Assembly (NCBI GenBank): GCA_014762625.1
Contig: JABURQ010000162.1
Span: 1-64,000, forward strand
Direction: 5' to 3'
DNA: 64,000 bases
Origin: Planctomycetaceae bacterium
GTDB lineage: Bacteria; Planctomycetota; Planctomycetia; Planctomycetales; Planctomycetaceae
Shown here: positions 12,355 to 33,837 of the stretch, in pieces
Position numbering within the stretch: position 1 is the stretch's first letter
How the letters are laid out: the number at the start of each line of letters is the position of its first letter
Made by a program: the position numbers and the translations under genes
Notes under the pieces: generated by a model
Told to the model about the DNA's origin: nothing
Database searches by the model: none
Seen by the model: the letters and a program-made list of their open reading frames with translations, nothing else

Positions 12355-15300
12355 TTGAATTCGCAACCTTCTTCTCGATCTTCCGTCGTGGAATCCACTC
12401 TGCTCGGAGAGATCGAACTACGCGACAAAGAAGGAGCTGCGCGCACCATTCGCTCGATGATTTCGTTGAGCCAGGACGAGGAAGCCATCTTTGAGTTTCT
12501 TCCGAAGTTAATCTCGGCCATTCAGCAGACGAGTTCGCCGGATCTCTGCCTGTCGCATTTTGAAAGATTTCTGCGCGTTACTCAACATCGCGACAAACTC
12601 CTCTCCTTTCTCTCCAACAACCCGCGCGCGGTCGAAATTCTGGTCCGAATCTTCCTCAACAGTCAATATCTGACGCAAATTCTGATCAAAGTCCCCGAAG
12701 CCGTCTATCAGTTTATCGTGCGTGAAGATTTGGTGGAACTGAAGAGTCGCGAACAATATCGCGATGAGGCTCTCCAATCCGCGTCGAACACCTCTTCTTA
12801 CCAAGACAGGTTGGATGCATTTCGACGCTATCAACACCAGCAAATCCTCCGCCTCGGCACCTGCGATGCTTTCGGCCTCCTCGACTTCCGATCCGTCACC
12901 GTCCAACTTTCACTCCTCGCGGACGGCCTGGTGCAAGCCTGTCTTTCCCTGATTACCCAAGAGACCGGCTTGTCACTGGACGGTTTTGTGGTGCTGGCGT
13001 GCGGCAAGCTCGGAGGCGAGGAACTCAACTACAGTTCGGATATCGATCTGTTGTTTCTCTCCGAGGAAGACCCTGTACCTTTCTGGCCGCTGGGGCAAAA
13101 ATTGATCCAGGCGCTCACGAACGCCTCTTCGGAAGGGTTTCTCTATCGCGTCGATATGCGTCTGCGTCCCTGGGGAGCTTCAGGGCCGCTGGTCAACTCC
13201 GTCGAAGCTTCTGTGAACTACTTAAAAAACGACGCCCGACATTGGGAACGCCAGGCGCTGGTCAAGGCCCGGGTCATTGCCGGCGATCAACGGGTCGGTG
13301 CGAAATTTCTCAAAGAGATCGACAAACTGGTATTTGATGATCCCCCTCCCGATTTGCGCGAACAGATTCGATCCACCAAGGAAAATATCGAGAGAAAGCT
13401 GCTCGAAAAAGGAACTCCCTGGGGCGAAGTAAAATCGGGAGCCGGATCGATTCGGGACGTCGAGTTCATCACGCAGTATCTGCAACTCAAACATGGCGGT
13501 AAGCGACCCGAACTGCGGACTTTCAACACGTTGGAAGGACTCATTCGTCTCGCCGATTTCGGTTTCATCCGACCGGACGAGTATCGCCAGCTTACAACGG
13601 GCTATCTGTTTTTGAGAAACGTCGAACACGCTCTGCAATTGATGCACAACAAACAACTGCATCAACTCCCTCAGGATGCAGCATCGCTCGACGCTCTCGC
13701 CATCCGTCTCGACTTTCCCTCTCGACAGCAATTCGAGCAGCAATACGAATCGCACTCAGCATCGATCCGAAAAATATTTGAATCTCATCTGGGGAGCGAC
13801 GACAACGAGGACGGCCCCCCTGAGGTTCGTGCGGCGGATCGTTTGTTAGCGCGGCTGGCGTTGTCCGAACCTGATTACCAATCCGTTTTCAGTGACACCG
13901 AACGAGTTCAACATCTCAACCTGCTCTCCGAAATCAGCGAGCAGAAGCCGATCGCCGTCACAACGACGCAACTTGAAGGTGATGAGACCTGGCAATTGAT
14001 CGTCGTCGGCTACGACGCACGCGGCATCCTCTCATTGATTTGTGGATTGTTATTCGCGGGAGACTGGAACGTGCTGGAAGGCCGAGTCTTCACCGATGAG
14101 GATGTCGGCTCCGTCGATGTGGAACCGACCGGTGATGACGACCGCAACCGCGTCCCCCTCTTTCTCAATTTCTTCAAGGTTCAGCAGCAGTTCCCGGAGA
14201 TTGAGGGACGACTGAAAAACTGGTCGGACTACGAAAGCGAACTCACGAAACAGGCCCTGCGCCTGCAATGTGATGAGGCGAAACGCGCGCAGGCTTCGGT
14301 GGCTCGCCAGTCGTCGCTACGGGTCGGACGCGTGGCCTCGAGCGAATCCTTACATTCGCTCCAGCCGGTCCGTTATCAGGTCGACAATATCAGCGATTCC
14401 AAACATACCATCCTGCATATTCAATCGGAGGACACCCCCGGTTTTCTCTACGAACTTACCAACGCCCTCACCCTCTCGAACGTGAACATCGTCCGCATGA
14501 TCATCGGCTCCGAACAAGAGCTGGTTCAGGACACGATGTATATCACCGATCGCGAAGGCAACAAGCTGAACGACGATCGGGAAATCCGAGAACTGACCAC
14601 TGCCGTGCTGTTGGTGAAGCATTGCATGCACCTGTTACCCGCCGCCCCCAATCCGGAAGTCGCCTGGCTTCATTTACGGGATTTCCTCGAAAAACTGTTC
14701 TCACAATCCGACTGGTACGAACAGATGGGCGATCTGGAAAGGCCGGATCGACTGGAGTCGCTTACAAGAATCCTCGGGGTCAGCCATCATCTCTGGCAGG
14801 ACTTCCTGCGACTGCATCACGATAGCGTCTTGCCGTTCGTCCAAAACGTCGATCAGCTTTCCCAGGAGAAATCCGAATCAGATCTGCGGAACGAACTCGA
14901 GGAGATGATTCTTGCGGCGGATGGTGACGACGCGAAAAAAGAAGAACTCAATCGATTCAAGGACCGCGAAACGTTTCGGACCGACATGCGGCATATTCTC
15001 GGATACATCCCGGTCTTCGGGCAGTTTTCCGAAGAGCTGACACGTGTGTGCGATGTCGTTCTTGAAGCCGCGTTGAAGCTGGCGGAGGAGAAACTCGAAC
15101 GTCGATACGGCGTTCCCATCGATACCCTCACCGGGCAACCCTGCCCGTTTGCGATTCTGGCTCTCGGGAAATGCGGCGGGAAGGAACTCGGATTCGCTTC
15201 CGATATCGAGCTGATGTTCCTGTATGAGGGAGACGGCAAAACCAACGGACCGCGATCCATCCGAGAAGTCTTTTATTTTGAAAGACTGATCAAGGAATTT

Positions 15301-30648: not shown

Positions 30649-31188
30649 CTAATAATTCCATGAATAAACGATTATCTCTCCTTGGACCGGCTGAACGACA
30701 ATGACTCCTCCTTGCGACGAATAATTGTGCGAGTATGGGAACTCTACCTTCCAGAAATAAGCGTTGGGAGATTCATGATACTTATCAAGTTTTCCACGGC
30801 TTGGGAAGTCTTTACCAATCGCTTCAACATCTGACGCTTTGATGAATTTTGCTTCATGTTTTGATTTGAGTTCGCGCATCCATTTTTTAAGGCGTTCAGA
30901 CTTGTCTTCATGATGAATTGCAAGTTCAGAGTAATTATCACTGTCGGAACCGAAATTTTCGGATGCTCTGGACTGGTGGCGAAGGCAAACGCATTCAGGA
31001 GGGGCCTTTATTCCCATGCGCCAAAGATGCCGCTCGCATTCGTTGAGGTGAAATCCCAGTAGATAATATGCAAAAGGGGATAACAACAACCAGGTAATGG
31101 CCGATATGGCGACCGCTTTCAGGTAAGACTTGACCAAAGAACGGGTTGGATCAGAAATGCTCTTTGCTGGGGTCTCTGGGGTATCCAT
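30649..31188 (-). CDS. Membrane-anchored hypothetical protein following a truncated RHS core (candidate orphan immunity or accessory)
   Basis: 179 aa with N-terminal hydrophobic segment; AGGAG Shine-Dalgarno 9 nt upstream of ATG; directly downstream of RHS core fragment. Confidence 0.55.
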   Translation of the reverse strand: MDTPETPAKSISDPTRSLVKSYLKAVAISAITWLLLSPFAYYLLGFHLNECERHLWRMGIKAPPECVCLRHQSRASENFGSDSDNYSELAIHHEDKSERLKKWMRELKSKHEAKFIKASDVEAIGKDFPSRGKLDKYHESPNAYFWKVEFPYSHNYSSQGGVIVVQPVQGEIIVYSWNY

Positions 31189-31475
31189 CTGACGCTGCTC
31201 CTGTTAGCTCGTAATCTGTCCAACCACAAACGATTCCCCCAGGCATCGTACGTGAACTCATCGGTGACGGCTTCTGTCTCGTCCGTCACGGTGCGGGTCG
31301 AGCCGAGAGCATCATAGTGGTACGTCAGCGTTTCGCCGGTGGAGACCTCTTCCTGGCTGATCAGGTGCGTGTAAGCGTCCGGCTCATTCGTGTAGAGCCG
31401 ATTGATTGTATCGGTCTCATCCGCCTCGGCCAGATACTGATTGCCGTCGTAAATGTAACGGGTGGTGGTGACCAT
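31119..31475 (-). pseudogene. RHS core fragment A2, truncated after DAWGNRL
   Basis: MVTTTRYIYDGNQYLAEADETDTINRLYTNEPDAYTHLISQEEVSTGETLTYHYDALGSTRTVTDETEAVTDEFTYDAWGNRL, then unrelated sequence. Confidence 0.8.
31217..31475 (-). repeat. Duplicated RHS core segment (copy A; partner about 33390..33638)
   Basis: High nucleotide similarity by eye over ~250 bp. Confidence 0.85.
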
Positions 31476-31566
31476 CGCATGGCTCCTTCGAAGTTGTACT
31501 GTAATGTCCAGATACGGACAGGGAAACAGCATTCTTCAAGTTGCTGTCGGGAATGGTGTTATCGCC

Positions 31567-31791
31567 TCAACTTTGCTTTTCCACGCGAATGCCGTCCGGG
31601 TTAAACGACATTGTCTCCCGGCTTAACGTTGGCAACTGGATAAGCGTGTTTTTGTTCTCGTAATCCCAACTGTAGGTGGTCAGATCGCCGTTCGGCTCCT
31701 CGACGATCTGCTGATTGCCGTCCGCGTCGAACATATAGGTCGTCGTGCCGTTGGCATCGAGGTCCACCTTTAAGTGGCTGTACCGACTCAT
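31567..31791 (-). pseudogene. RHS core fragment A1
   Basis: YMFDADGNQQIVEEPNGDLTTYSWDYENKNTLIQLPTLSRETMSFNPDGIRVEKQS*. Confidence 0.75.
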
Positions 31792-32270
31792 ATAACAGGG
31801 AAACTTATAGACAATTGTACGTACCATGCGAGATGAAAAACAGTTGCGCAGAATCCAACAGAAAGGTCAGGCAGTAACTCTCGCTTAAACGAAATCAGAT
31901 TGATCGCAATAATATACACCATAAATATAACGTAAATAGGATGAAATATAAAGTCCATCAGCACGATAGTATAAATGCTTAGTGGGGGAGCTGTAGTTAA
32001 CCACAGAGCTAGCATTACAAACAACACATGCATTATATTCATTGATGCAAGGCTATGAGACTGGCTGGCTCGTTGGCTAAATGAACGCAATAAGAACAAA
32101 AAGGGCTGACTTAATGATATAATAATAACTAAATTAAGTAAGAAGTATTGCGTGCGTACTAGAGTGCTGCTTCCGGCGGGGATTGGCCAGAGAGTATACG
32201 TTAATACTGAATACAGTATGAGAATCTCATAAGCTACTGCCAAAATAATTCGTACAGAGTTCATAGTCAT
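31788..32270 (-). CDS. Multi-pass hydrophobic membrane protein (candidate immunity protein)
   Basis: AT-rich ORF; several transmembrane segments; stop overlaps the ATG of RHS fragment A1 (ATGA). Confidence 0.55.
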   Translation of the reverse strand: MTMNSVRIILAVAYEILILYSVLTYTLWPIPAGSSTLVRTQYFLLNLVIIISLSQPFLFLLRSFSQRASQSHSLASMNIMHVLFVMLALWLTTAPPLSIYTIVLMDFIFHPIYVIFMVYIIAINLISFKRELLPDLSVGFCATVFHLAWYVQLSISFPVI

Positions 32271-32516
32271 AGCGTGAGTACATCCACTGTGGTGCAATCG
32301 TGTGCATATCTCGCTCATGAATGAGTGATGAAATGTATGTATGTGCCATAAGCCATATGGTCTAAGCGATTGATAGCGTAATCATGTGACGTAGTTCTGT
32401 GACGCATATTACAACTCATCCCCCAACCCTGTCCGGCTTTTCTTTGAGTCTGTGAAACACAGCATTTCGCACGTAAAAATATGGTTTTAGGACCGCTTCT
32501 ACTGGTTTGTTGCAGC

Positions 32517-33644
32517 TTATTTATACGGAGCATGTCTGCCGGGTCCTCGACTCGGAGGATGGGGGAAACTTGGTAATCGGTCCGGTTTCGGGGCACGCTT
32601 AGGAGGTGAAGAAGGCTTGGGGAATGGTGGTTTTGGGCACTCGCATAGTCCCCATTCTACGCAGCATTGCGTAAGCAGGCCACTCCCACCGAAAAGGCCT
32701 CCCCCAACAATTCCATACTTCTGGCAGCATTCTGCGTTCCATCCAACAGGATCTACGTTCCATGGTGTGTTGTCTGGTGCTGTCGACACTTGACATGCCT
32801 CGGTCAAGCATCTGAGACTCCAATTACTGTTTCGATTTAGAAGGGTGTATTCAGTTTTTGCGTTGATAAAACCATCGTAATAATTTTTTAAGCATCGGCA
32901 TGTTGAGTCTGGATAAAACAGTTCGTCACCTTGGTCTGCATCGGAGACAGGCCTATTCAGAAAATGATTTGGAGGATTTATTCCGCCTGTTATAGGTCCG
33001 CCAGTCGGTATAGGAATGTCTCTTGTAGGCCAAAAATCTAACCAGAAAGGACTTCCTTTTGTCTTCTTTGGTTCGCCAAAATGCTGATCAGTCGTAATAG
33101 TTAACCCGCAATGCAATATGTCAGACTCATAACCTTTATGGTCAACACCAAAACAATGTATGCCTATTTTGCACAAGAGCCCGCTTGGATCAATTAGCAA
33201 TAATGGACGATTCGACACATACCCATATACATTCAGCCCATCGACGAACCCGAGGGGATCCATGCTCCCCCAGCGGCCTGTGCTCGGCTGATACGTCCTG
33301 GCCATCACGTAATACGAATCCGTGGCATCTTCCCGGTAGTAGCCGTGTTCACCCACGTACTGAAACGGAATGTCGTTCGTGCCTGTTCGTGACAGCCGGT
33401 TCCCCCAGGCATCGTAGGTGAACTCATCAGTGACGGCCTCTGTCTCATCGGTCACAGTGCGGGTCGAGCCGACAGCGTCGTCGTGATAGGTCAGCGTTTC
33501 ACCCGTGGAGACCTCTTCCTGGCTAATCAGGTGAGTGTAAGCGTCCGGCTCGTTCGTGTAGAGCCGGTTAATCGTATCGGTCTCATCCGCCTCGGCGAGA
33601 TATTGGTTGCCGTCATAGATGTAATTGGTCACCGACATGGCCAT
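32517..33644 (-). CDS. RHS repeat-associated core C-terminal protein with Cys-rich polymorphic tip
   Basis: YVMARTYQPSTGRWGSMDPLGFVDGLNVYGYVSNRPLLLIDPSGL, then variable tip with ECCQKYG...CCVEWGLCECPKPP; AAGGAG upstream of ATG. Confidence 0.85.
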   Translation of the reverse strand: MAMSVTNYIYDGNQYLAEADETDTINRLYTNEPDAYTHLISQEEVSTGETLTYHDDAVGSTRTVTDETEAVTDEFTYDAWGNRLSRTGTNDIPFQYVGEHGYYREDATDSYYVMARTYQPSTGRWGSMDPLGFVDGLNVYGYVSNRPLLLIDPSGLLCKIGIHCFGVDHKGYESDILHCGLTITTDQHFGEPKKTKGSPFWLDFWPTRDIPIPTGGPITGGINPPNHFLNRPVSDADQGDELFYPDSTCRCLKNYYDGFINAKTEYTLLNRNSNWSLRCLTEACQVSTAPDNTPWNVDPVGWNAECCQKYGIVGGGLFGGSGLLTQCCVEWGLCECPKPPFPKPSSPPKRAPKPDRLPSFPHPPSRGPGRHAPYK

Positions 33645-33710
33645 GACTCCTTTTCGTGATTATCTGTTTATTGATGTCCTGTTGCAAGACATATTCGTAA
33701 CCCCTTGCTA

Positions 33711-33837
33711 TCACGACTCTTTTCGCACGCGAATGCCGTCCGGGTTAAACGACATCGTTTCCCGGCTTAACGTTGGCAACTGGATCAGCGTGTTTTTGTT
33801 CTCGTAATCCCAACTGTAGGTGGTCAGACCGCCGTTC
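33711..33837 (-). pseudogene. RHS core fragment B1 (5' end missing)
   Basis: Nearly identical to 31582..31693; encodes TTYSWDYENKNTLIQLPTLSRETMSFNPDGIRVRKES*. Confidence 0.75.

Follow-up and report, generated by a model that had tools for sequence, protein, structure and literature searches.

Two split RHS core units in a planctomycete contig as probable orphaned remains of a two-gene RHS polymorphic-toxin system

The window analyzed here, a stretch of 64,000 nucleotides (nt) at positions 1 to 64,000 of contig JABURQ010000162.1 from a Planctomycetaceae bacterium (assembly GCA_014762625.1), carries on its minus strand two units, A and B, in which an RHS core is cut off from the preceding RHS frame by a stop codon and a spacer, and resumes at an ATG preceded by a Shine-Dalgarno (SD) sequence. 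Judging from sequence comparisons with related planctomycetes, these units are quite probably the orphaned remnant of a planctomycete two-gene RHS polymorphic-toxin system. The first gene of this system would encode an RHS-repeat shell of 1,500-1,760 amino acids (aa), ending at an inter-strand turn right before the conserved C-terminal core. The second gene, the cartridge, would start 0-4 nt further on, its SD (AAGGAG, CAGGAG, or CGGGAG) lying within the last shell codons, and its product would consist of a core of about 150 aa closing the shell, a DPxG site, and a variable tip. Behind the first cartridge, others with different tips would form an array, every one of them having an SD-ATG and, as a rule, an adjoining open reading frame (ORF).

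In unit B, the tail of the shell gene (33711..33837, minus strand) reads ...FNPDGIRVRKES and matches the ends of intact shells, its own end being ...LTTYSWDYENKNTLIQLPTLSRETMSFNPDGIRVRKES; the stop TGA at 33713-33711 is directly followed by TAG at 33710-33708. The spacer (33645..33710, minus) holds the SD AAAAGGAG at 33654-33647 and measures 66 nt up to the ATG at 33644, or 72 nt up to the in-frame ATG at 33638. The core resumes as SVTNYIYDGNQYLAEADETD in cartridge B (32517..33644, minus), an intact ORF of 375 aa starting at ATG 33644 or 33638, which has an RHS core with DPSGL, matches TIGR03696 (Rhs-associated core domain; E 1.1e-18, 67.4 bits, cut-off 32.5), and ends in a Cys-rich tip of about 219 aa matching no known family. 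In unit A, a shell-gene tail of about 70 codons (31567..31780, minus) reads ...FNPDGIRVEKQS and ends in ...GIRVEKQS ahead of the TGA at 31569-31567, and the 91-nt spacer (31476..31566, minus) holds the SD GAAGGAG at 31489-31483. Cartridge A (31119..31475, minus) restarts at ATG 31475, where the core resumes as VTTTRYIYDGNQYLAEADETD, and is truncated: homology with the core of B extends only down to 31226, and unrelated sequence follows ...DAWGNRL. The stop at the same codon in both units, claimed in an earlier note on this DNA, can be read directly (…RVEKQS and …RVRKES, each followed by the stop), as can the SD ahead of each restart. Two points need qualifying. The restart written there as ATG-CG-ATG in unit A is an SD-ATG restart, but its first ATG (31480) is out of frame. 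The two RHS cores are split as described, but they do not belong to whole RHS genes, the shell being reduced in each unit to about 40-70 codons and the core of A being cut.

The shell-end fragments of A and B are 95% identical over 117 nt and the cores 87% identical over 238 nt. As the earlier note had supposed, no homology is detectable between the two spacers (65 of 500 shuffles align equally well); both of them nevertheless terminate in a similar SD-ATG. Over 77 codons, the cores differ by 26 synonymous and 2 nonsynonymous substitutions (synonymous divergence, dS, 0.80; nonsynonymous divergence, dN, 0.011; dN/dS about 0.014), and this pattern is reversed when the alignment is read in the other two frames. 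Since synonymous differences predominate to this extent, the restarted frame has been under strong selection as a protein. Divergence is lower in the shell tails (dS 0.25) than in the cores, and tail and core therefore do not have one common history; recombination in the tail is a possible cause of this unequal divergence. The alternative put forward in the earlier note, namely that the split was inherited by duplication and then diversified, holds in part: the window units have arisen by duplication, and their split is an inherited one.

Recurrence of the split at the homologous boundary in related planctomycetes had been proposed as a check, and it was found. A first search of 59 related genomes gave core matches with frames beginning at one same place, and a wider survey then identified 20 loci with a shell end, a stop, and a restart at the homologous point, distributed over 14 other genomes belonging to 11 genera and two families. 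Since the loci were picked as the best matches to a profile containing split members, these counts document recurrence, not prevalence. At seven split loci the shell is a whole ORF of 1,487-1,763 codons ending at the homologous codon. In G025, for example, a shell of 1,593 codons ends in ...FRRVKTEV and the DNA GGAGGTGTAGCCATG leads into MPVTEYTWD, while in G026 a shell of 1,587 codons ends in ...FRRVQTEE, followed by GGAGGAATAGCGATG; the junctions in G028, G023, and G032 are similar, with the same architecture and differing sequences. In the fused RHS genes, the frame is continuous at the split point. The cores and shells of the relatives are also mostly constrained. Among 28 further short ORFs that the survey placed in a standalone class, about 21 are SD-ATG cartridges resembling those of arrays. 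That the core plus tip is, or once was, a separately translated cassette, as the earlier note had proposed, is thus supported by the same stop and SD-ATG split in 14 other genomes and by the seven intact shells. A search throughout the phylum gave no clear split locus beyond the class. One doubtful case (L151 in G685, from another family of the phylum) has a core ORF of 259 aa with the start MGTTIFVYNGHN located ten codons past a stop, with no clear SD, and is possibly a split cartridge. A plasmid search with the split locus of G083 gave no match.

At 16 of the 22 loci, the window units included, stop and start are -1 to +4 nt apart, with the SD within the last shell codons; at the other six the gap is 53-295 nt. 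An SD match of at least five bases is present ahead of 17 of the 22 split restarts and 11 of 21 array cartridges, but at the corresponding site of only 5 of 40 fused genes; the background rate among ATGs is 5.1%. Since the SD lies in the last shell codons and the start 0-4 nt after the shell, translation of the cartridge is probably coupled to that of the shell. Random decay, against which the earlier note had already argued, was rejected in view of the recurrence in relatives, the SDs, and the dN/dS value.

A fused homologue was modelled with a mean pLDDT of 69 (about 75-87 round the junction), and the model matches PDB structures of Rhs and Tc cocoons. In it, the split point corresponds to residues 140-141, a two-residue turn linking the strands 134-139 and 142-149. 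The model of cartridge B was not used (pLDDT 46, tip not modelled). The distance from a fixed landmark to a conserved W is most often 36 residues in fused genes, and in split ones 35, of which the shell contributes 28 and the cartridge 7; shell and cartridge thus add up to the fused length to within about one residue. The break entails no loss of residues, as would suit two mutually fitting parts, and the shell and the cartridge would be expected to assemble together into one cocoon.

In a tree of 78 cores, 37 of them split, 34 of the split cores form one group (SH-aLRT 90), which also takes in three fused genes, all of one genus, and the split label requires 5 changes versus 26.2 in shuffles. 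Intact single-frame genes in relatives, which the earlier note had named as grounds for regarding the lesions of the window as random, were looked for: such fused genes do exist, but they occupy mostly branches apart from the split ones. This history fits either one old gene fission followed by a few refusions, or two fissions. The fused genes of G065/G067 (L130:280-1164, L075, L127) are nested in the split group and may be secondary refusions.

The cartridges of one array have cores that are 58-87% identical and tips that are only 21-33% identical, which is the noise level. Array cartridges thus have their cores in common but not their tips, in the manner of polymorphic toxins, and the tips would be toxic. 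Shell-tail stretches of about 30-190 nt precede many array cartridges and could be recombination arms. The ORFs located between cartridges are of varied kinds (LRR, WD40-like, membrane) and, by their position, are candidate immunity genes. Searches with Pfam and NCBIfam on tips and neighbouring ORFs gave almost nothing, and for tip B only two weak matches were found in 392 genomes of the phylum. The tip of L036:8819-9814 holds DELDAICELHDCC, which by eye resembles a phospholipase A2 active site; Pfam did not confirm this likeness.

The split system is assigned here to the Rhs polymorphic toxins, as a variant of that kind, rather than to the Tc toxins. The exchange of C-terminal tips on a conserved core, typical of Rhs/YD toxins, is seen in array pairs, whereas the RHS/YD repeats and the core do not occur in one polypeptide but in separate ORFs in the relatives. 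With effectors of the type VI secretion system and related Rhs proteins (RhsA, RhsP, Tse15, TseI) it shares the C-terminal core fold and the DPxG region, but those proteins are made as one polypeptide cleaved later, whereas here the gene itself is broken, about 150 residues earlier. In the TcB-TcC pairs of Tc (ABC) toxin complexes, such as YenB with YenC1/C2/C3, three C proteins can load one B shell (PMC11067744). The likeness lies in a two-gene RHS cocoon, presumed here, with alternative C parts having a conserved front and unrelated toxin ends; it is in the relatives, and not in the window, that a shell and a core/toxin on separate genes are found. In TcC, however, the conserved front before the tip comprises about 680 residues (PMC11067744), while the present split leaves only about 150. 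No Tc-specific shell domains (SpvB/TcdB type) were detected by Pfam in four shells, in which RHS repeats are present. In the open-licence papers searched we found no description of coupled arrays of this kind, nor of the two-gene cartridge split.

Whether this is a distinct two-gene RHS architecture is a more tentative matter, which we consider possible rather than probable: one shell would be loaded in trans by several co-expressed, separately translated cartridges, any of which might fit it, giving mixed payloads per cell without DNA rearrangement, the break would fall at the strand turn, and the last shell codons would double as the ribosome-binding site of the cartridge. On the usual view, Rhs proteins switch toxins when DNA rearrangement places a new one on the single long gene. 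A cartridge translated separately, if true, would enable one shell to carry several payloads at once, and the closing and loading of the cocoon would be directly testable with two purified parts. As regards annotation, many short planctomycete "RHS core" ORFs may be working genes, not debris.

Among the other explanations, it is unlikely, yet still worth considering, that the cartridges are expressed alone inside the cell as toxin-antitoxin modules with no need for a shell. Cartridges without a shell are indeed present in the window genome, and in Salmonella both main and orphan rhs genes make toxin from internal promoters, with initiation at CTG (PMC7043789). The internal expression of orphan Rhs toxins there starts close to the tip, and in this it differs from the split system. 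Spacer B has a promoter-like match just ahead of the restart (33687-33659, minus strand, TTGCAA-17-GATAAT), although the region holds no more such matches than chance would give (4 against an expected 3.8). At most split loci the cartridge lies directly behind the shell (0-4 nt), and the whole core of 150 aa, which would be superfluous for a bare toxin, is retained.

It is less likely still that the units are ordinary orphan rhs-CT modules, in which a core and tip stayed behind after C-terminal displacement, a stop arose in frame by chance, and no translation takes place. Arrays of core-plus-tip cassettes with immunity-like neighbouring ORFs are common to both (PMC3150448; PMC7043789), Yersinia pseudotuberculosis is known to have orphan modules that retain the core and contain a stop in frame (PMC3150448), some other genomes of the class do carry typical orphan arrays, and the lack of a shell and the truncation of unit A in the window would agree with such an origin. 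Orphan cdiA-CTs, however, reportedly have in general no translation initiation signals (PMC3150448), and orphans have no fixed break, whereas here a fixed start and an SD-ATG are the rule; in a contrast set of classical orphan arrays from the same class, the core starts are scattered and the SD-ATG is mostly absent. In the relatives, intact shells end exactly at the split codon with the first cartridge directly behind them, and the dN/dS of the window cores also speaks against this origin.

Recoding (readthrough, frameshift, or ribosomal bypassing), which would fuse both frames into one protein, is very improbable. Shell and cartridge do exactly complement the fused protein, but spacer B has additional in-frame stops, and the SD and the start codon are conserved. 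The gaps observed include -1, 1, 2, 4, 63, 72, 91, and 295 nt, so that the relative frame differs between loci and no single recoding event fits; recoding was rejected since gaps occur in all frames. That assembly or sequencing errors made the stops is scarcely credible, even though the window comes from a draft of 208 contigs, since the same split occurs across many independent assemblies, including G083, a single 7.7-Mb contig with both split and fused RHS genes, and sequencing errors cannot account for real spacers of 53-295 nt.

The reading of the window as the orphaned remains of a two-gene system is based on the lack of a shell gene in its genome and the truncation of unit A. No RHS-repeat shell was found in the assembly, and the only other RHS core is a scrap of 83 codons (G000:C109:36382-36549), too degraded to place. 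Unit B is an intact cartridge left as an orphan, translatable in principle but with no shell in this assembly, and of unit A a remnant is left; the window is thus ill suited to showing the system at work. Several points weigh against this reading. With no shell, the system is not functional in this genome, unless the shell was left unassembled, and the window spacers (66-91 nt) exceed the distance of tight coupling. Three split cores (G098/G032) are placed outside the main split group of the tree, three fused genes lie inside it, and many branches are weakly supported. Lastly, the tips match no known toxin family in Pfam, apart from a weak match to DUF3238.

In the surroundings of the window units, a strong terminator lies between unit B and its upstream gene. 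A hydrophobic ORF of 176 aa 3' of cartridge B (31788..32318, minus) is a candidate immunity gene by its position, and an ORF of 179 aa 3' of the truncated cartridge A (30649..31188, minus) is, on the same grounds, possibly the immunity gene of the lost tip. At split loci in two genera, a glycosyltransferase family 2 gene lies immediately upstream of the shell (L036:534-2405, L094:819-2846), with a Cys-containing C-terminal part showing a weak DUF6171 match. Small Cys-rich proteins without a Pfam match are encoded on both flanks of split loci (L036:11216-11644, L094:359-787 and 14170-14658). Upstream of the shell in G146, an AAA_24 ATPase of a type frequent in phages (L089:12271-12993) suggests that this split locus may be in a mobile region.
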